From: Verrucomicrobiales bacterium
GTDB lineage: Bacteria > Verrucomicrobiota > Verrucomicrobiia > Verrucomicrobiales > Verrucomicrobiaceae
Direction of reading: 5' to 3'
Assembly: GCA_020439875.1 (NCBI GenBank)
Contig: JAGRPD010000019.1
Coordinates: 1-45,319, forward strand
Length of the DNA: 45,319 bases
A model generated the notes under the pieces. It was not told the origin of the DNA. It saw only the letters and a program-made list of their open reading frames with translations, and did no database searches. The first letter of the stretch is position 1; every line of letters starts with the position of its first letter. A program made the position numbers and the translations under genes. Positions 5,883-37,287 of this stretch are shown piece after piece.

Positions 5883-6809
5883 ATGCCCAAGCTCCAAGTC
5901 ACCAAGTCCATCGTTCTTCAGGTTCCCCCCACCACGGCTTTCGCCACCGTGCGCGATCTCTCCAGTTGGCCGGCTTGGTCACCCTGGCTCATCACCGATC
6001 CCGAATGCGCCTTCGAAGTGGCGGAAGACGGTCGCTCCTACCGATGGAACGGTCCTGTCTGTGGGGCTGGCGTGATGCGAGTGACGGCGGAGACCGAAGC
6101 GCGACGCATCGACTTCGATCTGCTCTTTCTGAAGCCCTGGAAATCTGCGGCCCAAGTGGCCATGAAGTTTGAAGAAGTGGGCGATGGCACTCGCGTCACG
6201 TGGTCGATGGACAGTTCGCTGCCCTTCTTTCTGTTCTTTTTGCAGGCTCCCATGGTCACGCTCATCGGCATGGACTACGAGCGAGGCCTGAAGATGCTGA
6301 AGGATCGGCTGGAGCGCGGTTCCGTACCGTCTCAGTTGGAATTTCCCGGTGTGCAGGACTTCGCCGGTGGCACCTATTTCGGCATCCGCAGCACCTGCGC
6401 GCTCGCCGATCTCGGACCGAAAATGCAGGCGGATTTTGATCGCCTGCATCAGTGGCTGGAGGGCACGGAGGCGGTGCCCGCTGGGCCTCCGATCTCGATG
6501 TATCATCGCTGGGATCTGAAGCGCCGGGTGACGGAGTACACCACCGCCTTTCCACTGGAAAAAAAACCCGGCACCCTCCCTCCCGGTTTCGTCCAGCTCG
6601 AGGTGCCTGCCTGCCGCACCTTCGCCATCGAGCACATCGGCGCGTATCGCCATCTCGGCAATGCCTGGAGCGCGGGCATGATGCGCGCGCGCAGCAAGGT
6701 CTTCCGCCAAAGCAAGACGATCCACCCTTTTGAGTGCTACCTGACCAAACCCGGCACCGCAGAGGAAGCGGAGATCCGTAGTGTGGTTCACTTTCCGCTG
6801 CGGGACTAG
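5883..6809 (+). CDS. SRPBCC-domain protein with C-terminal GyrI-like effector-binding domain
   Basis: The 308-residue cytoplasmic protein has two small-molecule binding modules. Residues about 1-150 form an SRPBCC/polyketide-cyclase-like fold, recognisable from the opening VTKSIVLQVPPTTAFATVRD, the SWPAWSPW segment and GDGTRVTW. Residues about 160-308 resemble the GyrI-like/AraC effector-binding fold (AGGTYFGIR near the start, AIEHIGAYRHLG in the middle). No DNA-binding domain is present. This fusion is common in bacteria and usually has no known ligand. The ATG at 5883 starts the SRPBCC fold directly; an upstream TTG extension at 5832 adds residues unlike the family. It converges with the next gene, with eight bases between stop codons. 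Confidence 0.88.
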   Translation: MPKLQVTKSIVLQVPPTTAFATVRDLSSWPAWSPWLITDPECAFEVAEDGRSYRWNGPVCGAGVMRVTAETEARRIDFDLLFLKPWKSAAQVAMKFEEVGDGTRVTWSMDSSLPFFLFFLQAPMVTLIGMDYERGLKMLKDRLERGSVPSQLEFPGVQDFAGGTYFGIRSTCALADLGPKMQADFDRLHQWLEGTEAVPAGPPISMYHRWDLKRRVTEYTTAFPLEKKPGTLPPGFVQLEVPACRTFAIEHIGAYRHLGNAWSAGMMRARSKVFRQSKTIHPFECYLTKPGTAEEAEIRSVVHFPLRD

Positions 6810-21600: not shown

Positions 21601-21680
21601 CCACCACCCACGGACTCAGCGCCTCCACGCGCTTCCTCAGCCTACCCGTTCGCGCCTCCCCCACCGCCAGCAAGGACTGA
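15693..21680 (+). CDS. Thioester-containing bacterial alpha-2-macroglobulin
   Basis: The 1,995-residue protein starts with a Sec signal peptide (cleavage near THAA); no lipobox Cys is present, unlike many bacterial relatives. It has serial macroglobulin beta-sandwich domains (RPLYRPGETLHVQAM, EVTLMAVDEGVL), the post-bait segment with ADENGQARSHFTAPDSL, and the thioester domain with YPYGCAEQTSS, where Cys1513 and Gln1516 would form the internal thioester. A Lys/Pro/Ala-rich linker lies at about 1433-1468. Bacterial members trap proteases in the periplasm after bait cleavage and bind them covalently. The ATG at 15693 has an AAAGGA motif upstream; the longer frame to 15579 would lack the signal peptide. 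The usual partner PbpC is not adjacent; a MurJ-type gene is. Confidence 0.96.
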   Translation: MMKQYPTLMRAIGTVVIALTTMTHAAAPVAELTLSPPRMTAGTTLELVFAMPMVAQSAVGQRETESPLVISPTVAGWFEWTSTRSGIYHLEAAPRFDAEYRFRLRDGLKDRSGSEVKAISLGEAAAEGFTLVDQDPKWFERSNLKRDQGVLLQFNAAVNAEKAATQVVFRTKDGSTAVPAHTRWATGTDLRRYWADPQRTWDEEVAGVELEQVADAAVRENALLVTPAEPLPVGEDWQVVISKSIGTPDGRHALGETREVALGTVQPFKMTAAEAHTPFDRAYYLEIDFNKTLLPNPPQDKTADDKATEEQRRLWRQEQLERIASHITVEPAVELKVNAKASGSRDIVLEGAFQPNQSYTVKLRAGLRSADDLPLDHDYSETVSFVPNAPYLAVPAFSRSQRNAAEGAALEFTAANVDEVRVRVKRLNGAEWIEALELYRPYERAFRASEEKRRAYVPPAFDEYPGAQVLDRRYPVSKALDQSEALQLDWREVLGQSTAGAFLVELEGHAMPGVTDQAVRTQCLMELTDIGLMFKTNARDGLVFATHYGTGQPLADLRVTLLDAERKLIDQGRTDANGIAHLRARSAAYVLAESDSDLAVLKMDHGQSEMYGIYGWEIDQTWRDVWVPQRRTLVFSDRPLYRPGETLHVQAMTRLLTGDTLSLDAQPATARFKLRDARQRLLRDEPITFSASGSWSGSVTLPEEPLGSYEVEIEFPQGADGERPNGGYLHVRVDDYRPASFEITLDGRQAHPEEQGLVVPLSASYFMGKPLSEATLDWSAVSEPGFEPDTAFSKYQFGDAPRWSGYYIEDESGQPEEGEEDEWFVSGDTELNADGTAELTLPAPPPQAAGLPREVAVSVDVTDLNEQTLSAHTRFTVPGAKVLPGAKGTGFFGRTGEEMKLEIIAVDGAGAALRRAVEAQCLIERREVHTVRVETAGGGTTTEDQARRIEMLRQTVTLQPPAEAGTTALQLPYTPPQGGAYFLTVTTTDEDGRQAFCRLPFYVIAPGEYPWAVDEGSRIELQAEKSTLHPGEEAVIVVKSPIEGTALVTVERNGVTQHRVQPFHLEDPVVRLPIGEADAPNVYVSVLIVRGAEASPKKYALPEYRAGYCELRVDSDALRLQVEVTPSAPEVRPREEVQVTATITAADGRPLPGAEVTLMAVDEGVLSLMPRPDPDPASWFHQPFPLAIENHTSFDDLLSADPSLRERGNKGFLVGGGGMEGADAALPIRQHFLTTPLWSASVTADENGQARSHFTAPDSLTRYRLLAVVSSGVDRFGTGRGAVTVNQPLMIEPVLPRFARVGDEARVKALIHNTTTTGGEVEVTATLTGPVEILREARDFAPGFTASSEQSHTWKIAVPAAGTTRVMLPVHFKASGVTSWTWSARSLSGFGDAPQQDAVQRSLPVEMPVPALREVRYARVSGKDWEEIAPAQPAAEKTPSKTPSKGAKKATAKSAPPAKAPASVAERKRPNLLADVRPVLLEGTGWVEVSLGRSRLIEVRDALDYVLTYPYGCAEQTSSAMMPWLALGGFEPLFPGQLDPERSRDTVQKGVDRLLRMVTGGGGLAYWPGGSEPSLWASAYGGQVLLRAQKAGAQMPQGVIDDLLTYLSRQLRDLETEADPHRLTDCALALYTLARGGRAEPAYHTLLHSRRNQLPEAARLYTALAMLVAEAPEAPVKDLLGWTADQEKADWTPPEAAAGSRFSHWAGNNVNDALRLIACAHLGLKVSADRLTTRILSHRNGRGEWGNTYVNAWTLLALAAHERSLPPPPPHPVAATLAWGSQKKTLHLPPDGRPVTTRLPLAADRAAAPLTVDLPGDATCQARLEVHAFPTARDFQPEHHGLGIQRQYLLLQPDGTAILPDQWRIGDLVEISLGITLEKETLYLAIEDPLPAALEPLNLELETQRPAAATDLDDYEPWFCDHRELRQDRALFFTDFAPAKGHYVLRYLARVIAEGDHIAPPARIEAMYEPTTHGLSASTRFLSLPVRASPTASKD

Positions 21681-23051
21681 TTCCGCCTCCCGCCGCGCCA
21701 GGATCCGCCGCACCTGAGTCACCACCATCACCGCGCTGATGAGGGTCACCATCACCGTGGACAAAGCGATGCCCGGAGCCCCCATCCACCGCAGCAGCAC
21801 CGCATTCAACCCCGCATTGAGCGCCATCGACATCACGCTCAATCCGAGGATGAACCGCGTCGCCTGCAGAGAAACCAGCACCCGGGAGCCCAGCATGCCC
21901 ACGATGTAAAACGGCACCTGAAACACCAACACCCGCAGCACCGCCGCCACCCGCGCCGTATCCTCCGGCGTAAAAGCCCCCCGCTCAAACAGCAACCGCA
22001 CCACCCACGGAGCCAGCGCCGCCAGCAGCAGGCACGCGGGCACCGCCGCACCCGCCACCGCCAGGGTCGCACGCGCTAGGCGTCGCCGCAGTTCCACCCA
22101 GTCCCGGCGCGCCACCGTATCGGCAAAGTAGGGAAACAACACCTCCCCCGCCGGCATCGCCGTCAACGCCAACAGGATGCCCGTCAGTTTCTCCGCGTAG
22201 CTCAGCACCGCCACAGCCCCCGCCTGCAGCCCACCTGCCGCCATGATCTGATCCACCACCGGCGCACTGCTATAGACCACCCCCGCCATCAGGTAAGGCA
22301 GCGCCTGATGCACCACCCGCCGCATTGTCGGCTCCCACAGTTTGATCAAAGACCGCCACCAGCGCGCCTGCCGAGGCAAGCCCCGCAGCGCCGCCACCAC
22401 CAGCACCGTCAAGTGCAACCCACAACCCCACAACGTCCCCGTCACCAGATGCTCCATCGTCGCCCCAAAGGCCAACGCAAATAAAATTGCCACCGGAATC
22501 AGCATCGGAGCCGCCGCCGGCAGCGCAAACCGTTTGTCCCCCCGCAACCAGAGAGAAAACTGAAACGTCATCCCATACAGCACCATCACCGGCAGCAAAC
22601 GCCTCAGCAAATCCACCGCCAACGCCCGCTTCTCAGGCGCAAAACCCGCCGCCGCCAGCCCCATCACCCACGGAGCCATCAGCCACAACGCCAACCCAAT
22701 CCCCAGCAGCAATCCCGCCTGCACCAACGCCCCCTGCATCGCCAAACGTTGCGCCCGCCAGCCTCCGCGGTCATGCCTCAGCTGCGCGTAATGCGGCAAA
22801 AAAGCCTCCGGCAATCCCCCACCCAAAACCGACGCCACAAAACTCAGAAATCCAAACGCCAGCACATAGGCATCCATCGCGTCCGACGTCCCGAATCCCC
22901 GCGCCACCACCGCGTCCTTGAGAAAAGCCAGCGCCTTTCCCCCCACCGTCAAACCCGCCACCACCACAAAACCCGAGACCACCCGCGAACTCCCGCCCCG
23001 CAACAGCAAGGCGCGCGCACGCGTCAACCAATCTCCAAGTCTCACCAGCAT
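21642..23051 (-). CDS. murJ: MurJ/MviN-type lipid-linked precursor flippase
   Basis: The 469-residue protein has about 12-14 membrane helices of the MOP superfamily. The segment GKALAFLKDAVVARGFGTSDAMDAYVLAF matches the conserved start of MurJ in its pattern of Arg/Lys, Asp and Gly positions, and PEAFLPHYAQL follows as in the family. MurJ moves lipid II across the inner membrane for cell-wall synthesis. The protein is shorter than the roughly 510-residue E. coli MurJ, and the genome may hold another copy, so a role in a different lipid-linked glycan is possible. Its last 39 bases overlap the 3' end of the macroglobulin gene on the other strand. Confidence 0.85.
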   Translation of the reverse strand: MLVRLGDWLTRARALLLRGGSSRVVSGFVVVAGLTVGGKALAFLKDAVVARGFGTSDAMDAYVLAFGFLSFVASVLGGGLPEAFLPHYAQLRHDRGGWRAQRLAMQGALVQAGLLLGIGLALWLMAPWVMGLAAAGFAPEKRALAVDLLRRLLPVMVLYGMTFQFSLWLRGDKRFALPAAAPMLIPVAILFALAFGATMEHLVTGTLWGCGLHLTVLVVAALRGLPRQARWWRSLIKLWEPTMRRVVHQALPYLMAGVVYSSAPVVDQIMAAGGLQAGAVAVLSYAEKLTGILLALTAMPAGEVLFPYFADTVARRDWVELRRRLARATLAVAGAAVPACLLLAALAPWVVRLLFERGAFTPEDTARVAAVLRVLVFQVPFYIVGMLGSRVLVSLQATRFILGLSVMSMALNAGLNAVLLRWMGAPGIALSTVMVTLISAVMVVTQVRRILARREAESVLAGGGGGANG

Positions 23052-25497: not shown

Positions 25498-27753
25498 TTA
25501 AGCCTGGACCGCTCGGTCACCAGTCACTGTATTTCGAGCGGAATCCTCATCCTCCAGAGAATCGTAGTACGAGGACGAGTAGTAGTAGTAGTTGTAGTAA
25601 TTGCTAACCTTGCCCAGATCCAAGTCGTTGAGCACCAAGCCATAAACATGTGCTCCAGATTTGTTCAGCAATGTTACCGCATCGGCAACATCCTTCCTCG
25701 GTGTCTGCTCCGCTCGCACCACAAAGACCACACCGTCCACTGCGCGTTGCAGGCTCGATGCCTCACTGAGCCCCAATACCGGCGGCGTATCGATCACGAT
25801 CCGGTCATACCTCTCGCGAACCTCATCCAAAACCCGATCAAATATTGCCTGACACAACAGATCGGTCGTTCCCACGATCACTGGACCCCGAGGAATCACA
25901 TCCAATCGATCATTCGCGCTCTTCTGGATCGCATCGTCCAAGGTGCAATCCCCTTTCAGCAAGTGCGTCATCCCCAACTCATTGGATACATCGGTAAATC
26001 CATGAATGCGTCCCCGGCGCAAATCACAATCCATCAGCAGTGTCCGTTCACCCATCGACTGAAAAGCCCAGGCCAAATTCGCCGCCTGACTGGTCTTTCC
26101 CTCCGACGGACGCGAACTGGTGACCATCACGACCTTGTCCCCCCCAGGACGACCACTGGGATTGAGCACGATGTGACTGCGGATCAAACGGAAGTTCTCC
26201 AGCAGGAAATTCGGCACCTTGGCTCCAATCGCAGGCGATCGACAGACGTCTTCTAGGATCGCTTTTTCGGTGTGCGGCGTGATGCCTATCCCCTTCAGAC
26301 CCGTCGCATCCTCCAGCTGCCCCAGCGTGGAGGACGTCGTGTTCATCATGTTCACCAACGTCGGCACTCCCAACGCTCCACCTACCGCCAGCAGAAGCGA
26401 AACGGAAAGCAATTTCATCTTGTTGGGAGACACAGGGATTCTGTCGCGAAGGGAGGTGTATCCCTTGAACCTCATGTCCACCCAATCGCGCTCTTCCGAA
26501 AACGCAATGACCGCCACCTTCGAGGACAGTTCTTCACGAGCTTTATCCCACATGACTTTCGCTTTTTCACGATCCGAATAGGCCTGCCCTGAAATTCCCA
26601 ACTCCTCGTTGACCTTGTGATACTCCGGAAGGCGTTCTTCCAAGGTCACGAGTTTGCTCTCGTAATGTTCTTGCTCGAGTTCGAACCTCTGCCTCAAGAC
26701 CGCCAATTCCGCACGAAGCGCCCTCTCGTTGCTCTCCAGCTTCTCGTTCAAATCCTTCATCACTCGATGCTCAGGCAAGTATTGTTTGGAAGACTGGGCG
26801 ATTTGATCTTCGAGGATGCGGCGTTCCTTTTCCAATTCCTGCCAGGAGTTCAGTTCCTCCACCATGCCAGGTTGCACCACGACCTCTGTGGAGACTTTTG
26901 GTGCTTCAATCGTTGTCACAGGGCCCGGAGTGCGCTTACGCAACAGATCTCCCACCTTCACCTCGCGCTCCTTTTCAAAGGCCGTCAACAAAGACAATTC
27001 TTCCAGAACGGCGGCAATCGACAAGGGTTGCCCTGACTCACGCGGCAGACTCTCTAGCTTGGCCCGCACCTCGACCATGCGTCGAAGGATCTCTTTGGTG
27101 ATCACCAAGTCGCGGGGCAAGTCGTTGAGCCTTGATTGCTCAATCGTTGATTCCGTGATTTTTTCTTCTCTCTCGAATTTGGACAAGTCTTTCAGGCTCT
27201 CTTCCGCCTTTGCTTCCAACGCAGTAAGCTCCTTGGAATATCGCTCCAAGGCATTGTCTCGATATTGTGCCCAGGTCTCCTCTTGCAGCAAGCGGAAGGT
27301 TTCCACCAGAGCTTTGGGAAACTCTCGAGCAACCTCGGGGGACTTAGCCAAAACGGTGACCTCCATGTGGCTCGTATCCACGATGCCCGCCTGAACACTT
27401 CGGATGATCTTGACTACATCCTCCCAGGTCGCAGCTTGGCCAACGAGTCCCATTCGACGAGCTGTTTCGACGATGTTTCTCCTTGAGTTGAATTCCCACA
27501 TCATCGTTCGATTCAGTCCCTCAGACTGTAGAGTCTCGGGAACCGCACGTGATTTCAACGGACTCCCATAGCCTTTTACATACACAAGAGATCGTGTCTG
27601 GTAAATCGGTGTGCCATACACAAAATAAACAATACCGGCTAGGATTCCAAAGGCCGCCATCGCCGCCATCAAACGACCATGCTGTGCGTAGTTCAGGGCT
27701 TTTCCAACCCATTCCGCCGCATCAAAGACCTTTTTTCGTGGTGCTGTTTGCAT
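25498..27753 (-). CDS. Wzc-type polysaccharide co-polymerase/bacterial tyrosine kinase
   Basis: The 751-residue protein has an N-terminal membrane helix (about 30-50), a long periplasmic coiled-coil region (about 170-440), a second helix (about 443-467) and a cytoplasmic BY-kinase. The kinase shows Walker A (SSRPSEGKT, about 541-551), Walker A' (LLMDCDLRRGR) and Walker B (IVIDTPP). The tail has a tyrosine cluster (NYYNYYYYSSSYYDS, about 717-731), the normal autophosphorylation site. Such proteins set polymer length and help assemble capsule or exopolysaccharide exporters. The gene lies left of the polysaccharide export cluster and reads away from it, following a small membrane protein gene after 37 bases. 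Confidence 0.94.
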   Translation of the reverse strand: MQTAPRKKVFDAAEWVGKALNYAQHGRLMAAMAAFGILAGIVYFVYGTPIYQTRSLVYVKGYGSPLKSRAVPETLQSEGLNRTMMWEFNSRRNIVETARRMGLVGQAATWEDVVKIIRSVQAGIVDTSHMEVTVLAKSPEVAREFPKALVETFRLLQEETWAQYRDNALERYSKELTALEAKAEESLKDLSKFEREEKITESTIEQSRLNDLPRDLVITKEILRRMVEVRAKLESLPRESGQPLSIAAVLEELSLLTAFEKEREVKVGDLLRKRTPGPVTTIEAPKVSTEVVVQPGMVEELNSWQELEKERRILEDQIAQSSKQYLPEHRVMKDLNEKLESNERALRAELAVLRQRFELEQEHYESKLVTLEERLPEYHKVNEELGISGQAYSDREKAKVMWDKAREELSSKVAVIAFSEERDWVDMRFKGYTSLRDRIPVSPNKMKLLSVSLLLAVGGALGVPTLVNMMNTTSSTLGQLEDATGLKGIGITPHTEKAILEDVCRSPAIGAKVPNFLLENFRLIRSHIVLNPSGRPGGDKVVMVTSSRPSEGKTSQAANLAWAFQSMGERTLLMDCDLRRGRIHGFTDVSNELGMTHLLKGDCTLDDAIQKSANDRLDVIPRGPVIVGTTDLLCQAIFDRVLDEVRERYDRIVIDTPPVLGLSEASSLQRAVDGVVFVVRAEQTPRKDVADAVTLLNKSGAHVYGLVLNDLDLGKVSNYYNYYYYSSSYYDSLEDEDSARNTVTGDRAVQA

Positions 27754-28185: not shown

Positions 28186-28498
28186 TGTCAGCGGCCACTT
28201 AAAGTGCACCACTTTGGGGCGTGTCCAATGTCCTCAAAGTCGCCATGCACCAAACCATTGTTACCCTGTACTCGACAGGGTGCTCCATTCGTCAAATCGC
28301 CCGCCAATTGGGCATTAATCGCCGCCCTGTGGCGCGTTATGTCGCTGCCTCCACTTCTCCTCCCTTGGGACAGGCTCAAGCTACTCAAAGACCATTCTCT
28401 CAAAGCCAGCCTGCGCGCCAAACGCCAGCGAGCCGCCCTCTCTCCAGACTTCCGCTCCCAACCGCTTGCTCCCCTCTCAAACCATTTCGATGCGTAGG
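28186..28498 (+). mobile_element. IS21-family remnant, left end
   Basis: The segment starts with TGTCAGCGGCCACTTAAAG, which looks like the terminal repeat of an IS21-type element with a repeated CCACTT. It continues into the first part of an istA-like gene and then stops abruptly before the promoter and operator of the regulator gene. No istB and no right end are found. The right edge is approximate. Confidence 0.6.
28221..28498 (+). pseudogene. Truncated IstA transposase (IS21 family)
   Basis: The frame encodes an IstA N-terminus: HQTIVTLYSTGCSIRQIARQ with helix-turn-helix continuation LGINRRPVARYV. A Pro/Ser/Gln-rich linker follows, as in many IS21 relatives. The catalytic DDE core and everything after about residue 95 are missing. 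The frame runs on by chance to 28556. It cannot be a working transposase. Confidence 0.6.
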
Positions 28499-28549
28499 CC
28501 CTGGCAGATGCGGCGGAAACTGGAAAAACTCGTTGCAATTCGTTCAGTC

Positions 28550-28569
28550 CGTTTAGAATTCTCTAAACG
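28550..28569. promoter_or_regulatory. Operator-like dyad before the GbsR/MarR-type regulator
   Basis: Perfect 8-base arms CGTTTAGA and TCTAAACG are separated by four bases (ATTC). The dyad ends five bases before the ATG at 28575 and contains a -10-like TAGAAT (28554-28559); a TTGCAA at 28533-28538 could be a -35 but sits only 15 bases away. A dimeric winged-helix regulator bound here would block its own promoter, so autoregulation is the simplest reading. No Shine-Dalgarno motif fits, because the dyad occupies that position. Confidence 0.6.
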
Positions 28570-28574
28570 CTGGC

Positions 28575-29117
28575 ATGACCTCCACCCTCAACTCCCGATC
28601 CTGGACGACAGAACGGCGGCGTTTCGTCGAAGCCGGTGGGAACACCACGTACGCCTGCGGCCTGGGGCGCATGGTCGGGCGCGTGTTCGCGCTGCTGTAC
28701 CTCACGCCGGAGCCCCTGGCGCTGGAGCAGATCGCGGAAAGCCTCGCCGTCAGCAAGGCCAGCGCCAGCATCGTGGTGCGCCAGCTCGCCGCCCTGCATG
28801 CCATCCGCCGGGTGTGGGTGCCGGGGGACAGGCGGGACTTTTATGAAGCGGAGACGGACTTCGGCGTCATTTTCCGCGACGGGCTCATGCCGGGCGTGCG
28901 CAAGAAGCTCCAATCCGCGCGCGCCCAGATCGAGCGCATGATGGAGGCGGAGGCCGCGTCCGACGTCCTGGAAGTTTCGCTGAGCGCTGCGCCGGATGAG
29001 GCGACTCTCACCCGCGAGCAGCGCGCGGAACTGCGCCGCAGGCTGAAAAACGCCCGCTCCCTGCACAGCCGGATCGACCGCGTGCTGGGCAGCAAGTTGC
29101 TGTCCCGCTTTCTCTGA
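28575..29117 (+). CDS. GbsR/MarR-family transcriptional regulator
   Basis: The 180-residue protein has a winged helix-turn-helix at about residues 35-100. Its LALEQIAESLAVSKASASIV is the typical recognition region, and the wing RRVWVPGDRRDFYEAE matches GbsR-like proteins. The C-terminal half is helical and charged and would form the dimer interface. GbsR-like regulators control osmoprotectant uptake in Bacillus; in Verrucomicrobia they often sit before polysaccharide clusters (general knowledge, not checked here). The gene is 111 bases upstream of the Wzm permease and reads the same way, so it probably governs this locus. The dyad at 28550 is its likely operator. Confidence 0.9.
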   Translation: MTSTLNSRSWTTERRRFVEAGGNTTYACGLGRMVGRVFALLYLTPEPLALEQIAESLAVSKASASIVVRQLAALHAIRRVWVPGDRRDFYEAETDFGVIFRDGLMPGVRKKLQSARAQIERMMEAEAASDVLEVSLSAAPDEATLTREQRAELRRRLKNARSLHSRIDRVLGSKLLSRFL

Positions 29118-29184: not shown

Positions 29185-29201
29185 TCGCACCCCGGGTGCG
29201 A
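29185..29201. promoter_or_regulatory. GC-rich dyad between regulator and export operon
   Basis: Perfect 8-base arms TCGCACCC and GGGTGCGA flank a single C. The one-base centre prevents an RNA hairpin with all pairs but suits a DNA-binding dimer. It lies 28 bases before the permease ATG. Its sequence differs from the AT-rich dyad at 28550, so a different protein would be needed, or it is chance. Confidence 0.3.
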
Positions 29202-29228
29202 CCACGGGCGGCAGCTTGATTTGAGCCG

Positions 29229-30119
29229 ATGAACGACACGGCCAACGCCACGCCGCACGCCGTCGATTCCGGGGAAGAGTCCTGGGACATGATGATCGAG
29301 CCCCGCGCGGGCTGGTTCGAGCTGCACCTGAGCGACCTGTGGCGTTACCGGGATCTTCTCTGGATGTTCGTGCGCCGCGATTTTGTGGCGGTGTACAAGC
29401 AGACCATCCTCGGCCCGCTATGGTTTTTCATCCAGCCGCTGCTCATCACGCTGGTGTTCACGGTCATCTTCAGCGGTGTGGCCAAGCTGCCGACGGACGG
29501 GGCGCCGCCGCTGCTCTTTTACCTCGCCGGCACCACGCCGTGGAATTACTTCGCCACCTGCCTCACGAAAACGTCCACAACGTTCAAGGACAACGCCAAT
29601 CTCTTCGGCAAGGTGTACTTCCCGCGCCTCGTCACGCCGCTGTCCATCGTGATCTCCACCTTGATCCAGTTCGTGATCCAGTTCGCCACGCTGGTGATCG
29701 CCCTCGGCTGGTATCTGGCAAAGGGAGCGGAGCTGCATCCGAACTTTGCCGGCATCCTGCTGGGCACGCCGCTGCTGATTCTGATGCTGGGCGCGCAGGG
29801 GCTGGGATTTGGCATCATCATCTCCGCGTTGACCACGAAGTATCGCGACCTCGCCTTCGTCGTCGGCTTTGGCGTGCAGCTTGCCATGTACGCCACACCG
29901 GTCGTGTATCCGCTCTCCATGGTGTCGGAAAAGTACCGCGCCTGGCTGGAGCTGAACCCCATGACGGCGATCATCGAGGCATTCCGCGCCTTCTACCTTG
30001 GTGCCGGCACGTTTTCCTGGTCGATGCTCGGCTGGTCGGCCGGCGTCACCGCCACCGTGCTGCTTATTGGCATCGTGATTTTCAACCGCGTGGAAAAGAC
30101 CTTCATGGACACGGTGTGA
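29229..30119 (+). CDS. wzm: ABC-2 polysaccharide export permease (Wzm-like)
   Basis: The 296-residue protein has an amphipathic N-terminus then six membrane helices. The segments WRYRDLLWMFVRRDFVAVYK and QTILGPLWFFIQPL are typical of the Wzm/TagG permease N-terminal region; YLAGTTPWNYFATCL and NANLFGKVYFPRLVTPL follow as in the family. It forms the membrane channel through which a lipid-linked glycan is exported by the ABC pathway. The ATPase partner is two genes downstream (31327), with an acyltransferase gene between them. The start at 29229 lacks a strong ribosome binding site. Confidence 0.95.
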   Translation: MNDTANATPHAVDSGEESWDMMIEPRAGWFELHLSDLWRYRDLLWMFVRRDFVAVYKQTILGPLWFFIQPLLITLVFTVIFSGVAKLPTDGAPPLLFYLAGTTPWNYFATCLTKTSTTFKDNANLFGKVYFPRLVTPLSIVISTLIQFVIQFATLVIALGWYLAKGAELHPNFAGILLGTPLLILMLGAQGLGFGIIISALTTKYRDLAFVVGFGVQLAMYATPVVYPLSMVSEKYRAWLELNPMTAIIEAFRAFYLGAGTFSWSMLGWSAGVTATVLLIGIVIFNRVEKTFMDTV

Positions 30120-30158
30120 GCATGCCGCCGGGCTGCATCACTTTGTAAAGTGTGACTC

Positions 30159-31298
30159 ATGGGCTGTTTGCGATTGTTCCTCGCTCTGGTTGTGGTGGCG
30201 GCGCACACCTTGTCGGCCGGGCGGTTGCCGCTGATTGGTGGCAATCTGGCGGTGCGACTGTTTTTTGTGGTGTCTGGCTTCTACATGGCGCTGATCCTTT
30301 CGGCAAAATACAACCAGCCCGGCGGCTTGGGCCGACGGTTGTTTTACTCCAACCGGGCGCTCAGGATCTTCCCTCTGCTGGGGCTGGTGCTGGCGCTGGA
30401 GGTGGTGTTGGCGTTTCTGGTGCCAGCGCTTACCGGCGGCCCTTGGGCGGAGTGGCCGCGCCTGCTCGGCAGGCTGTGGGATCAAGGCCGGTTCACTGCC
30501 ATTGCGGCGATGGCGGGCGCGCAGATTTCCGGGTTCGGTGTGGATCTGGTGCATTTGTTTTCCTTCGATGGCTCGGGCGGTGCCCACTGGTACAGCGGTC
30601 CGGTGACTGGCGATGGATTTCGCGGTTGGCAGCCATTGCCGATGTCACACGCATGGTCGATCTCCTGCGAGTTGGTGTTTTATTTGCTCGCCCCCCTGCT
30701 GGCGCGCTTGCGGCTGCCGGCACTGGTCGGCGTTGCGGTGGCCTCGGCGCTGCTTGATCCCATCATGGCCAAGGGGGCAGGGCTCGTCGCGCTCAGCGAT
30801 GTGGCGTCGAGTTTTGCCGCGCCGCTGCAGTTTGGTTACTTCATCCTGGGTATCCTGGCCTATCGCCTCTATCTGCACCCGCGCTGGAGCCCCGCATTGC
30901 TGCCTGGGCTGGTGCAGGCGGGGATCGTGGCAGGCTTCTTTGGGCTGTGCGTGTTTTACTCCGTCTGGAACCGGTTCAGCTACACGGGCACGCTGGTGCT
31001 GCTCTATACGGGTGTCACGCTGTCCATTCCGGTGCTCTTCGCCCGTTGCGCGCGGCTGTCGTGGGATCGGGAGATCGGTGATCTTTCGTATCCGGTCTAT
31101 CTCGTCCACGTCACCGTGATCCGGTTGTTTGATCTGCCATCAATCGGTGGCCGGTTTGGGGAGGGGTTTCGGGGCAGCTTCCCGCACACCGCGGCGGTCG
31201 CAGCGGTCAGCATCGCGCTGTCCTGGGTGATCGTGCATACGATTGACCAGAGGATCGATGCCTACCGCCAGTCGCGCCTTCAGCGTGCGGCGGCATGA
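30159..31298 (+). CDS. Acyltransferase 3 (OafA-like) membrane O-acyltransferase
   Basis: The 379-residue protein has about ten membrane helices. It opens with LRLFLALVVVAAHT, where the His of the family active site is present, followed by VRLFFVVSGFYMAL and the Arg-rich loop SNRALRIFP. These are the three hallmarks of the acyltransferase 3 family, which adds acetyl or other acyl groups to sugars from the inside of the membrane. It sits between the permease and ATPase genes of the export system (gaps of 39 and 28 bases), so it probably modifies the exported glycan. The acyl group and target sugar are unknown. Confidence 0.93.
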   Translation: MGCLRLFLALVVVAAHTLSAGRLPLIGGNLAVRLFFVVSGFYMALILSAKYNQPGGLGRRLFYSNRALRIFPLLGLVLALEVVLAFLVPALTGGPWAEWPRLLGRLWDQGRFTAIAAMAGAQISGFGVDLVHLFSFDGSGGAHWYSGPVTGDGFRGWQPLPMSHAWSISCELVFYLLAPLLARLRLPALVGVAVASALLDPIMAKGAGLVALSDVASSFAAPLQFGYFILGILAYRLYLHPRWSPALLPGLVQAGIVAGFFGLCVFYSVWNRFSYTGTLVLLYTGVTLSIPVLFARCARLSWDREIGDLSYPVYLVHVTVIRLFDLPSIGGRFGEGFRGSFPHTAAVAAVSIALSWVIVHTIDQRIDAYRQSRLQRAAA

Positions 31299-31326
31299 TG
31301 GCTGTCGTGCCCGCCAATTCAGACTT

Positions 31327-32664
31327 ATGGGAACCGTCATCCAGGTTGAAAACCTTTCCAAGCTCTACCGCCTTGGCGAGGTGAGCACGGGGACGATTTC
31401 GCACGACATCAACCGCTGGTGGCACCGTGTGCGGGGGAAGGAGGATCCGTACGCGCAGGTGGGCCAGGTGAACAACCGCGAACGCAGCATGGCGGGCGAC
31501 GGACTGCGCCCCGAGGATCACTACGTGTGGGCGCTGCGCGACATCAACTTCCGGGTCGAGCATGGCGAGGTGCTGGGAATCATCGGGCGCAATGGCGCCG
31601 GCAAAAGCACGCTGCTCAAAATCCTCTCACGGGTCACGGCGCCGAGTTCCGGACGCATCAAGGTCAAAGGCCGCATCGCCTCCCTGCTGGAGGTGGGCAC
31701 AGGTTTCCATTCCGAGCTGACCGGACGGGAGAACATTTTTCTCAACGGCGCGATCCTCGGCATGAGGAGCGGGGAAATCCGGCGCAAGCTCGATGAAATC
31801 GTGGATTTCTCCGGCTGCGCGGCTTACCTCGACACGCCGGTGAAACGCTATTCCAGCGGTATGACGGTGCGCATGGCCTTCGCTGTGGCGGCGTTTCTTG
31901 AGGCGGAGATTTTGGTGATCGACGAGGTGCTGGCCGTTGGCGATGCTGAGTTTCAGAAGAAGTGCCTCGGCAAAATGGGGGATGTGGCCGCGCTGGGGCG
32001 CACGCTGCTCTTCGTGAGCCACAACATGGCCACCATCCAGCGGTTGTGCGGGAGGGTGCTGCTGCTGGATTCTGGTGTGACTGCCGGTACGGGTGACGCT
32101 CCCAGCATCATCGGGAAGTACTTTCGACACAACAATCTGGGATCAGCGACCTCCGTCCTTTGGCCCATCAATGAGGCACCGGGAAACTCGAAAGTGCTAT
32201 TGAGAAAGGTCGCAATTGTGGACGGCGCTGGACGGGTCCTTCCAGATCAAGTTCTTTCGACCGAGTCGGTCGCCGTTATGATGGAATTTGACGCGTTTGC
32301 CGTGCTTGACAGGTTGGTCGTGGGTATTGAGATTTGGCAGCCGGACGGGGCGGCAGTTCTGACATCTTACCACCGGGACATGGATGATTCTCGTCAGATG
32401 CGCTACGAGCACGGCACAAACCGGTGGCAGGTTACGATTCCATCTGGCCTTCTCAATGCGGGACGTTACGTGGTGACCGCCTGCATCGGTGAGCATGACC
32501 GTGGTTGGATCTGCCGGGTCGAGGCAGCGGTTCGGTTTAGCGTGATTATCAGCCATGGAACTTCGCAATTTCTCCGCGAATATCAAGCGCGCGGCATCAT
32601 CCGGCCAGGAGTGATAGCTCCTGTTCTCGAATGGGAAAAGTCGCGCTCAGATGACGAGACCTAA
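31327..32664 (+). CDS. wzt: ABC transporter ATPase with carbohydrate-binding tail (Wzt-like)
   Basis: The 445-residue protein carries Walker A GRNGAGKST (87-95), the signature region YSSGMTVR (175 on), Walker B with Asp199 (LVIDEV) and the switch His232 (VSHN). A long insertion between the first strand and Walker A (about 18-65) is typical of polysaccharide exporters. Residues about 290-430 form a Wzt C-terminal-like beta-sandwich, which in characterised systems recognises the non-reducing end of the finished glycan, often a methylated or otherwise capped sugar. That fits the many methyltransferases downstream. The ATG at 31327 is chosen because the upstream extension would overlap the acyltransferase gene and lacks family similarity. 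Confidence 0.95.
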   Translation: MGTVIQVENLSKLYRLGEVSTGTISHDINRWWHRVRGKEDPYAQVGQVNNRERSMAGDGLRPEDHYVWALRDINFRVEHGEVLGIIGRNGAGKSTLLKILSRVTAPSSGRIKVKGRIASLLEVGTGFHSELTGRENIFLNGAILGMRSGEIRRKLDEIVDFSGCAAYLDTPVKRYSSGMTVRMAFAVAAFLEAEILVIDEVLAVGDAEFQKKCLGKMGDVAALGRTLLFVSHNMATIQRLCGRVLLLDSGVTAGTGDAPSIIGKYFRHNNLGSATSVLWPINEAPGNSKVLLRKVAIVDGAGRVLPDQVLSTESVAVMMEFDAFAVLDRLVVGIEIWQPDGAAVLTSYHRDMDDSRQMRYEHGTNRWQVTIPSGLLNAGRYVVTACIGEHDRGWICRVEAAVRFSVIISHGTSQFLREYQARGIIRPGVIAPVLEWEKSRSDDET

Positions 32665-32680
32665 CAATTGATATAATACG

Positions 32681-33430
32681 ATGGTTCCCCGCATGCTTGC
32701 AACTCCGGCAAAATTCCTGCTACGTCGTCTTGGGCTCGAACTGCGACGTTTGCAGCACGAGGATCTTTCGGTACCGTCCATTCCCGATGGTCATCTGTAC
32801 CGCCCGCACTATTGCCCCTGGTTAGGCGATTCCGAGTTCGAACGGTACTATCAAATCGCAGCACCGCGAACTTTGGTTTCTCGCCATCGATGCCATGTGC
32901 TGTACACAATGCTGCAACAGTGCCTGGACGTGCCTGGCGATATCTGGGAATGCGGCGTTTACAAGGGCGGAACCGCTGCGATGATGGCGTCGTTTCTCGC
33001 AGCGTCCGGAACGGACAAAAAACTGCTGCTGTTTGACACTTTTGGAGGTATGCCCCCGACCGACCCTTTGCACGACCTTCATCAGGAGGGTGATTTCGCG
33101 GATACTAGTATTTCTGAAGTAAAAGAGTATGTGGGAAACGCGGAGTTCTGCGGTTATCACCAAGGATTTATCCCGGAGACATTTGTGGGTTTGGCTGCAG
33201 CCCAGATTGCAGCTGCGCATATTGATCTCGATATTTATCGGTCGGTGCTTCACTGCATCGAATTCATCTGGCCCCGTCTTTCGGTGGGAGGGATGGTCGT
33301 GTTTGACGACTACGGCTTTCGAACATGTCCTGGTGCCCGGGCTGCTGTGGACGAGTTCTTCAAGGACAAATCAGCGTATCCGCTGTGTCTCTCCACAGGG
33401 CAGGCGCTTGTGTTCAAGAGCGTAGCGTGA
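32681..33430 (+). CDS. TylF/MycF-like SAM-dependent O-methyltransferase
   Basis: The 249-residue protein has the SAM-binding fold of the macrocin-O-methyltransferase (TylF) family: GDIWECGVYKGG (motif I), KKLLLFDTFGGMPPTD with the metal-site Asp, the HIDLDIYRSVLHCIE strand and GGMVVFDDYG. Such enzymes methylate sugar hydroxyls using a divalent metal. It follows the ATPase gene by 16 bases. The likely job is O-methylation of a sugar in the exported glycan, possibly the terminal cap read by the Wzt tail; that link is inferred. Confidence 0.92.
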   Translation: MVPRMLATPAKFLLRRLGLELRRLQHEDLSVPSIPDGHLYRPHYCPWLGDSEFERYYQIAAPRTLVSRHRCHVLYTMLQQCLDVPGDIWECGVYKGGTAAMMASFLAASGTDKKLLLFDTFGGMPPTDPLHDLHQEGDFADTSISEVKEYVGNAEFCGYHQGFIPETFVGLAAAQIAAAHIDLDIYRSVLHCIEFIWPRLSVGGMVVFDDYGFRTCPGARAAVDEFFKDKSAYPLCLSTGQALVFKSVA

Positions 33431-33495
33431 CGGCCATTCGTTGCGACTGCAGTAGCCGTTCTGCTCGCCTGTAGAGGGCATTCTATAGATTTCTG

Positions 33496-34557
33496 ATGCA
33501 ACGAATTGCAGCGACTAGGGAAGGCATGACTGAAGGCCCTGAAAACGACAGCCTGGCGGATGCTGTGCGATGCCCAATCTGTAAACGAGTATCGGCACCC
33601 ATCCATCCAGAGAATCGGGCAGCCATTTGGGATTATGGGAGGGTGTTCGAAAACTATTCGTGCGCCAATTGTGAACTGATTTTTTGCCATCCGATGCCGT
33701 CTGATGATGAGATCAGGGACATCTACACAAAGCGCTACGACTATGAATGGTTTCGGCGTCGGGCGTTATTGAAACGGGCGCAGGCCATTCATCGGTTCCA
33801 ACGTCTTCAGCAACTATGGGGCGAATTCGGCGGGGACGGAAGACCGAGATTCATCGATATCGGTTGTGGTCATGGCTGGCTGGTCGGCTGTGCGCAGAAT
33901 GCAGGATGGATTAGCACGGGGATCGATTTTCTTGACGATGACCAAGTTCGGCTTGCCCGCTGCAAGGGGTTGGATCTCCGTGACTCGTCGATTGAGCGAT
34001 TCGTTGCTCCGTCCGAGGGATATGAGTTCGCCTCAATGTGGCACTCACTGGAACACACATCGGATCCTCGGCGGATCTTGAAGGCGGTGGGGAATTTGCT
34101 CGGAGTTAACGGACTGGCTGTGATAGCCGTACCGAACCGGAACGCTGCGGGGCTTGCGAAAGCTGGCTCGAAGTGGGGCTGGTTTCAGAAGCCCTTCATC
34201 CATCCATGGTGCTTTTCCGTTCGCGCGCTCAAGCAACTGCTGCCTGACAATCTGCGGCTCGAACTAGTTTCTAGCAGGGACACCTGGGATCAGCAATGGG
34301 TGCAGTATTCTTCGGTTTTCCAAGGCACCGATTCATTGATGAAGTGGGTCTTCCGGTGGGTGTGCGGTGCGTTGAGAAGAGTTGGGTTGAACCGCATGGC
34401 AGGACTTGCCGATGCCGGGCACTTTGTGCTTCGGGAGGGCTTGCTGGTGATGACTTATTTGGGCTATCTGATCGTTCGTCGGACGCCTTGGATCAGAGAC
34501 GGATATGAGAGGCAATGCAGAGCGTCCGAATTGCTGATCGTTGCGCGCAGGGTTTAG
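33496..34557 (+). CDS. Class I SAM methyltransferase with N-terminal zinc-ribbon
   Basis: The 353-residue protein begins with a four-Cys zinc-binding module (CPICKR and CANCELIF, about residues 26-60). A class I methyltransferase of the Methyltransf_23 type follows, with FIDIGCGHGWLVG as motif I and a SMWHSLEHTSDPRRIL segment near residues 177-192. The C-terminal third is hydrophobic and may touch the membrane. Relatives are frequent in polysaccharide and antibiotic-sugar clusters, some acting as C-methyltransferases. The substrate is unknown. An ATG at 33526 is an alternative start. Confidence 0.88.
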   Translation: MQRIAATREGMTEGPENDSLADAVRCPICKRVSAPIHPENRAAIWDYGRVFENYSCANCELIFCHPMPSDDEIRDIYTKRYDYEWFRRRALLKRAQAIHRFQRLQQLWGEFGGDGRPRFIDIGCGHGWLVGCAQNAGWISTGIDFLDDDQVRLARCKGLDLRDSSIERFVAPSEGYEFASMWHSLEHTSDPRRILKAVGNLLGVNGLAVIAVPNRNAAGLAKAGSKWGWFQKPFIHPWCFSVRALKQLLPDNLRLELVSSRDTWDQQWVQYSSVFQGTDSLMKWVFRWVCGALRRVGLNRMAGLADAGHFVLREGLLVMTYLGYLIVRRTPWIRDGYERQCRASELLIVARRV

Positions 34558-34633
34558 GAAGGCGAACTTGCCCGGCTCGCTATTAGGCAATGGTTTGCAA
34601 GAAAATTTTGCGTCGACGAAATTTTGGGCTTCG

Positions 34634-35521
34634 ATGAATTGGGGGGTGGTTTTTGGTTGGCTCACTCGGGCATTGAACAGAGGGCACCAAAGGCGGCTCG
34701 GGGGCGGCGTCTTTTCAAAAGGCGGAGGGCTTGGGGATGAGCTTATGGTGCTGTGCGCCATACAGGCGGTCCGCCGGAAACAGCCCGCACTGGATATCGC
34801 ATTTTGCGCTCGCAACCATCAGTTGCTGAATGGCGCGATAGGGGTGGGGGCAGTGCGGTCTTTTGACAGTGCAGCAGCCGCGAGAACGGGGATCGGTATC
34901 AGTTATTCTGAGAGACACGAACTGCCGATTCTGAAGCAGATGACCGCCCAGATGGGAGTGCCCGATGCCGATGATTTCTCCCTCGAATTGCCAGAGCGAC
35001 CGCTGTGCTTGCCTGGGGGCTGGCCTCCGGGTGATGAGCTGAAGATTCTGGTGCAAGTCTCGGGGAGCGGTTGGACTCCGAACAAGCAATGGCCGCTCGA
35101 TTATTGGCGAAAGTTCATTGAAAGCCTACCTGAAGAGCTTTCGATCATCGAGCTTGGCACACATCCTGCGTTTCCGTCGCCACCCGGCCATCCGGGTTGG
35201 TGCTCGCTCGCCGGTCAGACGAGCCTTGAGGAGTTTGCCTCATGTTTCCGCGCTTGCGGTGCCTTTGTGGGTCCTGTGTCTGGTGGCATGCATCTTGCGC
35301 ACGCCTTCCGGGTGCCATCCGTCATCATTACCGGTGGCTACGAGGCGGCCAATTTCCCCTACCCGCTCGCGATCCAGCTTGGTACCGGCATCGAATGCGC
35401 GCCTTGCTGGCTGCGCACACCCTGCCCGTATGACCGTCGTTGCCTGCGAGAGATCACGCCGGAACGGGTCGCGGGCGAGTTGATGAAGCAGATTGGCACC
35501 CCAGCGGCAGACCAACTATGA
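34634..35521 (+). CDS. Glycosyltransferase family 9 (heptosyltransferase-like)
   Basis: The 295-residue protein has the two-domain GT-B look of GT9: GGGLGDELMVLCAIQAVR at the N-terminus, a nucleotide-side segment VQVSGSGWTPNKQWPLDYW, and GPVSGGMHLAHAFRVPSV with the conserved His. The Cys cluster CAPCWLRTPCPYDRRC near the end is common in GT9. It transfers an activated sugar, by family analogy heptose or a related ADP- or GDP-sugar, to a growing chain. The ATG at 34634 is taken; an upstream TTG at 34541 overlaps the previous gene and adds unlike residues. Its stop overlaps the next gene's start. Confidence 0.9.
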   Translation: MNWGVVFGWLTRALNRGHQRRLGGGVFSKGGGLGDELMVLCAIQAVRRKQPALDIAFCARNHQLLNGAIGVGAVRSFDSAAAARTGIGISYSERHELPILKQMTAQMGVPDADDFSLELPERPLCLPGGWPPGDELKILVQVSGSGWTPNKQWPLDYWRKFIESLPEELSIIELGTHPAFPSPPGHPGWCSLAGQTSLEEFASCFRACGAFVGPVSGGMHLAHAFRVPSVIITGGYEAANFPYPLAIQLGTGIECAPCWLRTPCPYDRRCLREITPERVAGELMKQIGTPAADQL

Positions 35522-36264
35522 GCGCGCACCCTCTAGCAAGAAGACTCTGGACCAGTCTAAAGAGGCGGGTTTATCTCCATCTGGGGGTTCCACTTTTCCG
35601 GACCTGGGCGCTGAATGGAGTGCCGCTCTGTGTGCGTGGATTCTGCCGCGCCATGAAGGTGGCGATAGTAAGCGGCAGGTACGAACGTGCCGAGGCGGAG
35701 GCGTGCAGGTCGCTGGTCCGGTCCGGGGACAAGATCGTCGAACTCGGCGCGGCAGTCGGCTACGTGGGCCTCTTTTGCCTCACCCAGGGGGCGGCCTCGC
35801 GGGTTGTGTCCGTGGAGGCGAATCCGGGATCCGTCCGGAGGCTAGTGCACAATTATGATTTGAGCGGACGCCAGGCGGAGGTCATCAGTGCAGCGATCGC
35901 CGCGAAGGACGGTGAGATGGTCTTTTACACGAGCCCCGAGTTCTGGGGTGATGGCGTGGAGCGGAGGGGGGAGCGGCAGACGGCCATTTCCGTGCCCACC
36001 ATGTCATTCCGCACGCTGTGGTCTCGTCTTGACTTCGAGCCAGACGTGGTGATCGCGGACATCGAAGGTGCCGAGGTGGATCTACCCTGGCGGGAGCTTC
36101 CTACTGCGACCAATCGCATTATCATCGAGCTGCACCCGCGCTTGAGAGGCCCCGCCAAATCTTTCGCGCTGCTGAAGCTGTTGATGGACCTCGGTTTCGA
36201 GGTGGCCTTCTGTCGCGATGATGTCTTCGGCCTCGTCCGGAGTAAAATCCCGCCCGCCGGTTGA
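35518..36264 (+). CDS. FkbM-family methyltransferase (first of three)
   Basis: The 248-residue protein has motif I VELGAAVGYVGLFC, the acidic SAM-ribose strand VSVEANPGSVRRL, and the family signature IADIEGAEVDLPWREL with the final IIIELHPRL. FkbM-type enzymes O-methylate sugars or related hydroxyl groups. The ATG overlaps the TGA of the GT9 gene (ATGA), showing translational coupling. It probably acts on the residue laid down by a neighbouring glycosyltransferase. Confidence 0.92.
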   Translation: MSAHPLARRLWTSLKRRVYLHLGVPLFRTWALNGVPLCVRGFCRAMKVAIVSGRYERAEAEACRSLVRSGDKIVELGAAVGYVGLFCLTQGAASRVVSVEANPGSVRRLVHNYDLSGRQAEVISAAIAAKDGEMVFYTSPEFWGDGVERRGERQTAISVPTMSFRTLWSRLDFEPDVVIADIEGAEVDLPWRELPTATNRIIIELHPRLRGPAKSFALLKLLMDLGFEVAFCRDDVFGLVRSKIPPAG

Positions 36265-36285
36265 CCCTGCATTTGAGGCAAACAG

Positions 36286-37287
36286 ATGGAAGGATCGGTT
36301 GAAGTCCGGCTTATCACCTACCGGCGGCCCAGGCTTCTCGAGCGCGCGCTGCGCAGTTTGCTGGCGCAGACCCACGCCGACTGGCGCGCAGTGGTGTATG
36401 ATGATTCCAGTGCCTTCGAATCACGTGAGGTTGTGGCGCGGCTGGGCGATCCGCGGATCGAAACACGCCAGAATCCGCGAAATCTGGGCATGGTCGGCAA
36501 TCTGAGCCTCGCCTTTGCCCCCGGATCAGTTTTCCCGACTACAACTCACGCTTGTATTCTGGAGGACGATAATGCGTTTGATCCTGATTGGCTGGAGCAA
36601 AATCTGCGGGTCATGAGCACCCGTGCTTGCCGTGTGATGTGCCGGAATTACCGTGTCGTTGAGGTGCTGCCGGATGGCGCGTTACGCAAGACCGCGAATG
36701 AACCCATGCGCGACATTTACGGCAGGGAGGCACGATATCTTGACTATCAGGAGCGCGTCAAGGAGGCATTCTTCAGTTTCACCATCGGCACGTGCTGCTT
36801 TTTCTGGAACACGCACTCTGGTGTAGATCTCTCTGCCGCCTGCGAGCGGATCAATGGCCCGGTCATGGAGCCCATTCGTGCCACCTGTTTTCGTGATCCA
36901 TGCTGGTATGAGCCAGAGCCTCTTTCGTGCTTCAGCCAATTTGTTGACAAGACTCAGACCCCACGCAGCGAAACCCCAGTTTCCACGCAGCGGCGAAGAG
37001 TGGGGAAGGTCAGTGAGATATTGTTCACTCGCCACCTCTATCAGACATGGACGAACGAGTTTCATCTGCCTGTCATTGACATTCTCAATGCCGCGTCGAG
37101 TCGAAGTGATGGCAAAGAGGCGCTTCAAAGGCTTGCTGATGCTGGTTGCCTTCAGGCAGTGCGTCGTTTGCCCGATTCGCGGTCGCGGCTGGCCGCAGTG
37201 AAGTCGTGGGCGGTCCTTTTGCTTTACCGTCGCAAATGGGCTCAGATTAACCGTCCGGTTCCCGTGCCTGATCGAGCTGGTGTTTGA
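36286..37287 (+). CDS. Glycosyltransferase family 2
   Basis: The 333-residue protein has a GT-A fold of GT2: LITYRRPRLLERALRSLLAQ at the start, the first nucleotide-binding Asp pair in VVYDDSSAF, and CILEDDNAFDPDWLE carrying the metal-binding acidic cluster. The C-terminal half has no recognised domain. It would transfer a nucleotide-sugar unit during glycan assembly in the cytoplasm. It lies 21 bases after the first FkbM gene and is the last gene before the reversed glycosyltransferase. Confidence 0.9.
   Translation: MEGSVEVRLITYRRPRLLERALRSLLAQTHADWRAVVYDDSSAFESREVVARLGDPRIETRQNPRNLGMVGNLSLAFAPGSVFPTTTHACILEDDNAFDPDWLEQNLRVMSTRACRVMCRNYRVVEVLPDGALRKTANEPMRDIYGREARYLDYQERVKEAFFSFTIGTCCFFWNTHSGVDLSAACERINGPVMEPIRATCFRDPCWYEPEPLSCFSQFVDKTQTPRSETPVSTQRRRVGKVSEILFTRHLYQTWTNEFHLPVIDILNAASSRSDGKEALQRLADAGCLQAVRRLPDSRSRLAAVKSWAVLLLYRRKWAQINRPVPVPDRAGV

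Follow-up and report, generated by a model that had tools for sequence, protein, structure and literature searches.

GbsR of B. subtilis is a repressor that acts as a roadblock downstream of the transcription start site, and its operator is an A/T-rich inverted repeat located at or downstream of that site (PMC7396694, excerpts). Direct repression of its own operon, cioRAB, is described for CioR, likewise of the GbsR type (PMC11837568, excerpts, which give no operator motif). In the main text of PMC6207618, the words polysaccharide and glycosyl have 0 occurrences.

Here, we analyzed a stretch of 45,319 nucleotides (referred to as the window) from a Verrucomicrobiales bacterium, in which a dyad directly precedes a gene encoding a GbsR/Mj223-type MarR protein (Table 1). 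Like GbsR, OpcR and OpuAR, this regulator has an Mj223-like winged helix-turn-helix, and the dyad resembles the type of operator described for GbsR. Like CioR and CydE, it would be part of the operon that it represses, repression being putative in the present case. In contrast to these systems, its neighbors are genes for glycan export and synthesis, not betaine/choline genes or the cytochrome bd genes that make up the CioR/CydE operons. Differences from GbsR, OpcR and OpuAR are also the half-site, which reads CGTTYAG, and the location of the site at the regulator's own gene.

In the RfaH/ops system, to which the region behind the regulator bears a resemblance, the ops element is the 12-mer GGCGGTAGCGTG. 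RfaH is described as mostly limited to Proteobacteria (PMC7593976, abstract), and GGCGGTAG occurs once in a paper cited for ops.

Table 1. Features of the regulator gene, its upstream region and the genes behind it (positions in the window; a point marks a feature without strand).
Feature	Position	Strand	Basis or remark
Putative -35 box TTGCAA, 11 bp before dyad	28533..28538	+	TTGCNN common to nearest relatives
Possible third half-site CGTTCAG, repeated directly 9 bp ahead of left arm	28541..28547	+	7/7 match
Putative operator dyad CGTTTAG-AATTCT-CTAAACG (7+6+7)	28550..28569	.	Position and conservation before homologous regulator genes
Putative -10 box TAGAAT within dyad, 15-base spacer to TTGCAA	28554..28559	+	Weak
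Regulator gene, 180 aa, GbsR/Mj223-type MarR protein, helix SKASASIVVRQL	28575..29117	+	Profile match, fold match
Hairpin TCGCACC-CCG-GGTGCGA just before ops-like element	29185..29201	+	Folding z -2.94
Ops-like element GGCGGCAGCTTG between regulator and wzm	29207..29218	+	GGCGGYAGC match
Wzm-like ABC-2 membrane protein, glycan export	29229..30119	+	
Acyltransferase (Acyl_transf_3)	30159..31298	+	
Wzt-like ABC ATPase with Wzt_C domain	31243..32664	+	ORF; real start probably further in
TylF-type methyltransferase	32681..33430	+	
Methyltransferase (Methyltransf_23)	33496..34557	+	
Glycosyltransferase family 9	34541..35521	+	
Glycosyltransferase family 2, end of unbroken + strand run	36286..37287	+	

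The dyad and its promoter context

The exact letters of the dyad are CGTTTAGA-ATTC-TCTAAACG. Dyad, TAGAAT and the regulator's ATG (28575) all lie exactly where the preliminary description had placed them, and the 5 bases (CTGGC) between dyad and ATG leave, as it had stated, no room for a ribosome-binding site. Taken by itself, the dyad is no more than expected by chance: one perfect 8+8 dyad with a 4-base center was observed in the 45-kb window (mean of shuffles 0.95), and five were observed with centers of 3-8 bases (mean of shuffles 7.25). Its significance rests on conservation before homologous genes and not on window statistics. The conserved unit is 7+6+7 (CGTTTAG-N6-CTAAACG), and the extra inner A:T pair of the 8+8 arms originally described is not conserved.

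The possible third half-site upstream of the dyad matches in 7/7 positions in the window and is also present in L004 and L032, with the reservation that in many other loci this offset is also that of the -10 box. Nine bp was the outstanding offset for such a half-site; it is found downstream of the dyad in 10 of the 27 loci outside the window's subfamily, and L068 and L095 also carry a third half-site 9 bp from a dyad arm.

A promoter scan of this stretch of the window yielded no promoter-like site at the threshold, and by consensus the promoter is weak. The overlap between dyad and -10 box proposed earlier holds for the window and its nearest relatives, in which the -10 box would fall inside the dyad because a TTGCNN box precedes the dyad by 11 bp; in 42 of 67 loci, however, only 0-2 bp separate the end of the best -10 box from the dyad, which would then cover the transcription start. 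In most loci, it abuts or overlaps the promoter. The start codon follows after 0-7 nt in 34 of the 40 loci of the subfamily and after 14-34 nt in 24 of the 27 loci outside it. For the subfamily, these distances support the very short leader that had been suggested and point to a near-leaderless mRNA.

Conservation before homologous regulator genes

Among 57 relatives searched, close orthologues of the regulator (50-69% identity) were found in 11 genomes besides its own. All 11 carry CGTTYA(G/A)-N6-(C)TRAACR at the start codon, mostly touching the ATG. Two tandem copies of the dyad occur in L005.

A scan of named genomes gave 80 regulator loci. We scored 84 upstream regions: to these loci we added the window and four more loci of the family, and we left out L060 (its match starts at base 2). 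A score of at least 12 of 14 to CGTTYAR-N6-YTRAACG was reached in 68 of the 84 regions, a test that is partly circular because the motif was framed on part of the same loci, as compared with 10 of 1680 dinucleotide shuffles and 1 of 84 in-gene stretches. All 40 loci of the window's subfamily reached this score before the regulator gene, but they do not represent 40 independent events since near-duplicates are included (L033, L034, and L008; also L003 = L032, L007 = L033, L009 = L034, and L010 = L037). The 16 loci scoring below 12 lie, without exception, outside the subfamily.

The site extends to loci labeled Nitrospirota, Chloroflexota, Omnitrophota, and Peptococcaceae. In a phylum sweep, regulator homologues were detected in 161 of 387 genomes. 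A score of at least 12 was obtained for 13 of 27 further loci from this sweep; as L115, L116, L118, and L120 repeat L059, L066, L065, and L063, the site is present in 9 of 23 new loci. Most sweep loci without the site have another recognition helix. A motif-free search for palindromes with 7-base arms and an N6 center found 7/7 matches in 36 of 128 loci (vs. 14 of 1280 shuffles). It is weaker than the motif search, because half-sites are sometimes asymmetric and some of the top palindromes are terminators or other repeats.

The search upstream of homologous regulators, which the preliminary description had recommended, thus finds the dyad conserved, though as the 7+6+7 core, and this conservation before the orthologous genes agrees with the earlier proposal that its placement fits negative autoregulation. 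The sequence data establish a conserved, self-located, and nearly always single operator-like dyad.

Two further observations concern individual loci. In the Methylorubrum homologues L099 and L100 (near 5944-5963), an ATG lies inside the dyad (ATTTCTGTCATGACCGAAAT). A contig labeled Chloroflexi (L058) displays a Verrucomicrobiota-type layout including the ops-like element, possibly due to misbinning.

The regulator and its recognition helix

The best solved relative of the regulator by profile match is Mj223 (1ku9, E = 4.7e-18), the model structure of the GbsR type. It is also the top fold match of the regulator model (mean pLDDT 70), and both matches include the winged helix-turn-helix; the assignment of a GbsR/MarR-type product is therefore supported by sequence as well as by predicted fold. 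For the C-terminal part, where GbsR-type regulators have a helical dimerization region, the monomer model predicts helices at 108-135 and 147-172 with modest confidence. Against the NCBIfam model CudC, the regulator scores 52.6 bits (cut-off 218), and its neighbors are glycan genes, with no osmoprotectant or cytochrome bd genes among them. This excludes the osmostress or cyd sub-groups of GbsR-type regulators; the family assignment itself is unaffected.

Half-sites differ between groups of recognition helices. The helix SKAS[AV]S pairs with CGTTYAG-N6-CTRAACG, and SKGNVS with CGTTTA[GA]-N6. With the 7+6+7 geometry kept, SRGNAN pairs with CTTTCAG-N6-CTGAAAG and ARSNVS with ATTTCTG-N6-CRGAAAT. 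Among the eight loci with the SKGSASM helix, L129 carries TGTTCAATACGAATTGAACG, L126 a weaker variant, and six have no clear dyad. Four loci with SKGS[AV]SQG (L015, L016, L017, and L019) have GTTCA-N8-TGAAC or a near match further upstream, as read by eye. Left out of the comparison are L007, L009, and several named loci that are near-duplicates (L032-L034, L037, L041, L044). Binding of the regulator to its own site would predict exactly such a change of half-site with the neighbor's helix; shared descent alone could yield part of the correlation. In the Prosthecobacter MAG locus L074:6001-6514, the regulator frame is broken (first in-frame stop at +258), which indicates a relic or an assembly error.

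Alternative explanations for the dyad

Located at the start of a gene, the dyad could pair as RNA and might be a leader hairpin through which the regulator mRNA is controlled in its translation or by early termination. Such an RNA element appears very improbable to us: in 3 of 67 dyads, the left arm is of the C type and the right arm of the A type, a combination that mispairs (C-A) as RNA yet provides two good half-sites as DNA; the dyad straddles the expected start in most loci and so would not be wholly transcribed; and tandem and third half-sites suit DNA binding. Sequence cannot tell the binder or the sign of control, and the dyad might be bound by a different regulator, or by the neighboring protein as an activator, instead of serving autorepression. 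An activator would likewise keep a conserved dyad, though more usually upstream of the -35 box, whereas the dyads found here lie on the -10 box or start site, as suits repression. A different binder is at odds with the variation of the half-site with the recognition helix of the neighboring protein and with the two genomes in which neither a close orthologue nor a site was found (G010 and G017, 0 exact sites), and we consider both variants together unlikely. Finally, a window of this size should contain one such dyad by chance, and the ORF just upstream (28221-28556) gives transposase/resolvase-like helix-turn-helix matches. That the dyad is a chance palindrome or a relic of this insertion-sequence-like ORF has a negligible probability given its conservation upstream of orthologous genes. 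There is a single copy of the upstream stretch, and of the ORF, in the genome; as the dyad is also conserved without the ORF, an insertion-sequence origin was ruled out.

The same dyad could also control several surface-glycan operons in trans, and the preliminary description had proposed a regulon of this kind; the genes behind the dyad are indeed glycan genes. We sought the exact pattern CGTTYAR-N6-YTRAACR in 20 genomes, comprising 12 of the family with the regulator, two without, and six more distant ones. In each of the 12 genomes with the regulator, the site stands at the regulator gene, and 10 of these genomes have no other exact copy, the extra copies elsewhere being two in G020 and one in G031. 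Of the six more distant genomes, several carry a copy ahead of a second paralogue; copies at other places occur in G211 and G418 as well. Allowing one mismatch in the own genome gave 22 and 25 matches vs. 46 and 47 for the reversed control, i.e. no excess, in an assembly that is 87.5% complete and from which a site may be missing. The element present before several glycan operons is the ops-like one, which is different from the dyad. The proposed regulon is therefore not borne out, the site being essentially single and at its own regulator gene, and a shared trans-acting operator is extremely improbable.

Genes and elements behind the regulator

From 29229 to 37287, the window encodes glycan export proteins, methyltransferases, and glycosyltransferases on one strand. 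When the first three same-strand ORFs behind the regulator were tallied for 31 loci (L034, L039, L053, L060, and L074 absent), the 82 genes included 18 ABC2_membrane, 17 ABC_tran, 10 Wzt_C, and 4 NusG matches. Genes for a ParA/BcsQ-like ATPase, possibly a polysaccharide co-polymerase, and for a MurJ/Wzx-like flippase are located nearby (25498-27753 and 21642-23051, both on the - strand) and belong to the wider glycan region.

The ops-like element lies 89 nt past the stop codon of the regulator gene, and the next start codon comes about 10 nt after it. The hairpin preceding it is strong in the window copy only (z of -0.6 to -1.2 in five relatives), and for this reason we do not claim it as a conserved structure. 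GGCGGYAGC is present behind the regulator gene in 31 of 41 loci (shuffles 10 of 4100), at a distance from the stop of 73-123 nt in 30 loci and of 354 nt in L074, where a stretch of 420 nt was searched. It is missing after the stop in L053, L057, L059, L060, L062-L066, and L004, the last of which is among the nearest relatives (160 nt searched). A longer ops-like pattern gave 49 matches vs. 11 for the reversed control in 18 genomes, some of them without the regulator. In the 18 stretches inspected for ops-like sites, a glycan-type gene (as judged by its first residues) follows shortly behind most sites, and in L243 the site follows the gene of a NusG paralogue; exceptions are L241, with no gene behind the site on its strand, and L242 and L248, with no site. 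Other glycan operons, both in this genome and in those of relatives, are thus preceded by similar elements.

The sole NusG-family match in the own assembly is an RfaH-like protein at L141:1258-2028 (G000:C448); a housekeeping NusG was not found in this assembly, which is 87.5% complete. The best model for the RfaH-like protein is TIGR01955 RfaH (85.5 bits, cut-off 144.5), and below this cut-off it classifies as a NusG paralogue, not an RfaH orthologue. The combination of GGCGG-Y-AGC in the leaders of surface-glycan operons with an RfaH-like NusG paralogue in the genome recalls the E. coli RfaH/ops (JUMPstart) system. In contrast to E. coli, base 6 is not T but C (26 of 31 loci), a hairpin precedes the element, the protein stays under the RfaH model cut-offs, and the ops-contact residues of E. 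coli are not kept (alignment read by eye). As with Bacteroides UpxY, a NusG paralogue is an early gene of the glycan operon in L046, L047, L052, and L061; here, however, the leading gene is of the MarR type with putative autoregulation, and there is an ops-like DNA element.

Another conserved element (~GGGAAyTGACsGGGrCGAAGyCTG) follows or precedes the regulator genes of the Kiritimatiellia-like loci L059 and L062-L066, as well as those of L129, L131, L137, and L139. It is perhaps another recruitment site.

A possible two-step switch for glycan operons

Overall, we consider it highly likely that the dyad is the putative operator of the GbsR/Mj223-type regulator encoded directly behind it, which would repress its own gene, limit the operon as a whole, and be followed by an ops/RfaH-like step. 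Sequence comparison gives good support to the operator part, while binding by the neighboring protein, repression, the operon-wide effect, and antitermination are inferred. According to this model, a regulator dimer would bind the two CGTTTAG half-sites and block its own promoter at initiation or in the earliest phase of elongation. As the regulator is the first gene of the same-strand glycan run, self-repression would also limit the glycan operon behind it. Transcription would begin within the dyad or directly behind it and yield a nearly leaderless mRNA. Transcripts that extend past the regulator gene would then meet the hairpin and the ops-like pause element, where the RfaH-like NusG paralogue may load and enable the polymerase to finish the operon.

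Among the matches listed in our literature searches, there was no report of such a repressor joined to an ops/RfaH-like glycan switch. No paper was found in which ops, RfaH and verrucomicrobi occur together as whole words, a search weakened by the truncated stem; the four papers joining verrucomicrobi and rfah dealt with unrelated subjects, as judged by title and start of abstract. Whether the locus represents an undescribed two-step glycan switch of Verrucomicrobiota, with an autorepressing GbsR-type leader gene acting on initiation and the hairpin, GGCGGYAGC, and a divergent RfaH-like NusG paralogue acting on elongation, is in our judgment evenly balanced.

The locus provides a concrete candidate operator and a candidate helix-to-half-site code for a poorly characterized MarR branch found in several phyla. 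Glycan operons would be a target not named for the GbsR-type branch in the available parts of the cited literature. If the two-step reading holds, RfaH/ops-type control would extend well beyond Proteobacteria, since the ops-like element also stands before other glycan operons that lack the repressor. The position of this element next to the regulator makes RfaH-type control outside this group directly testable.
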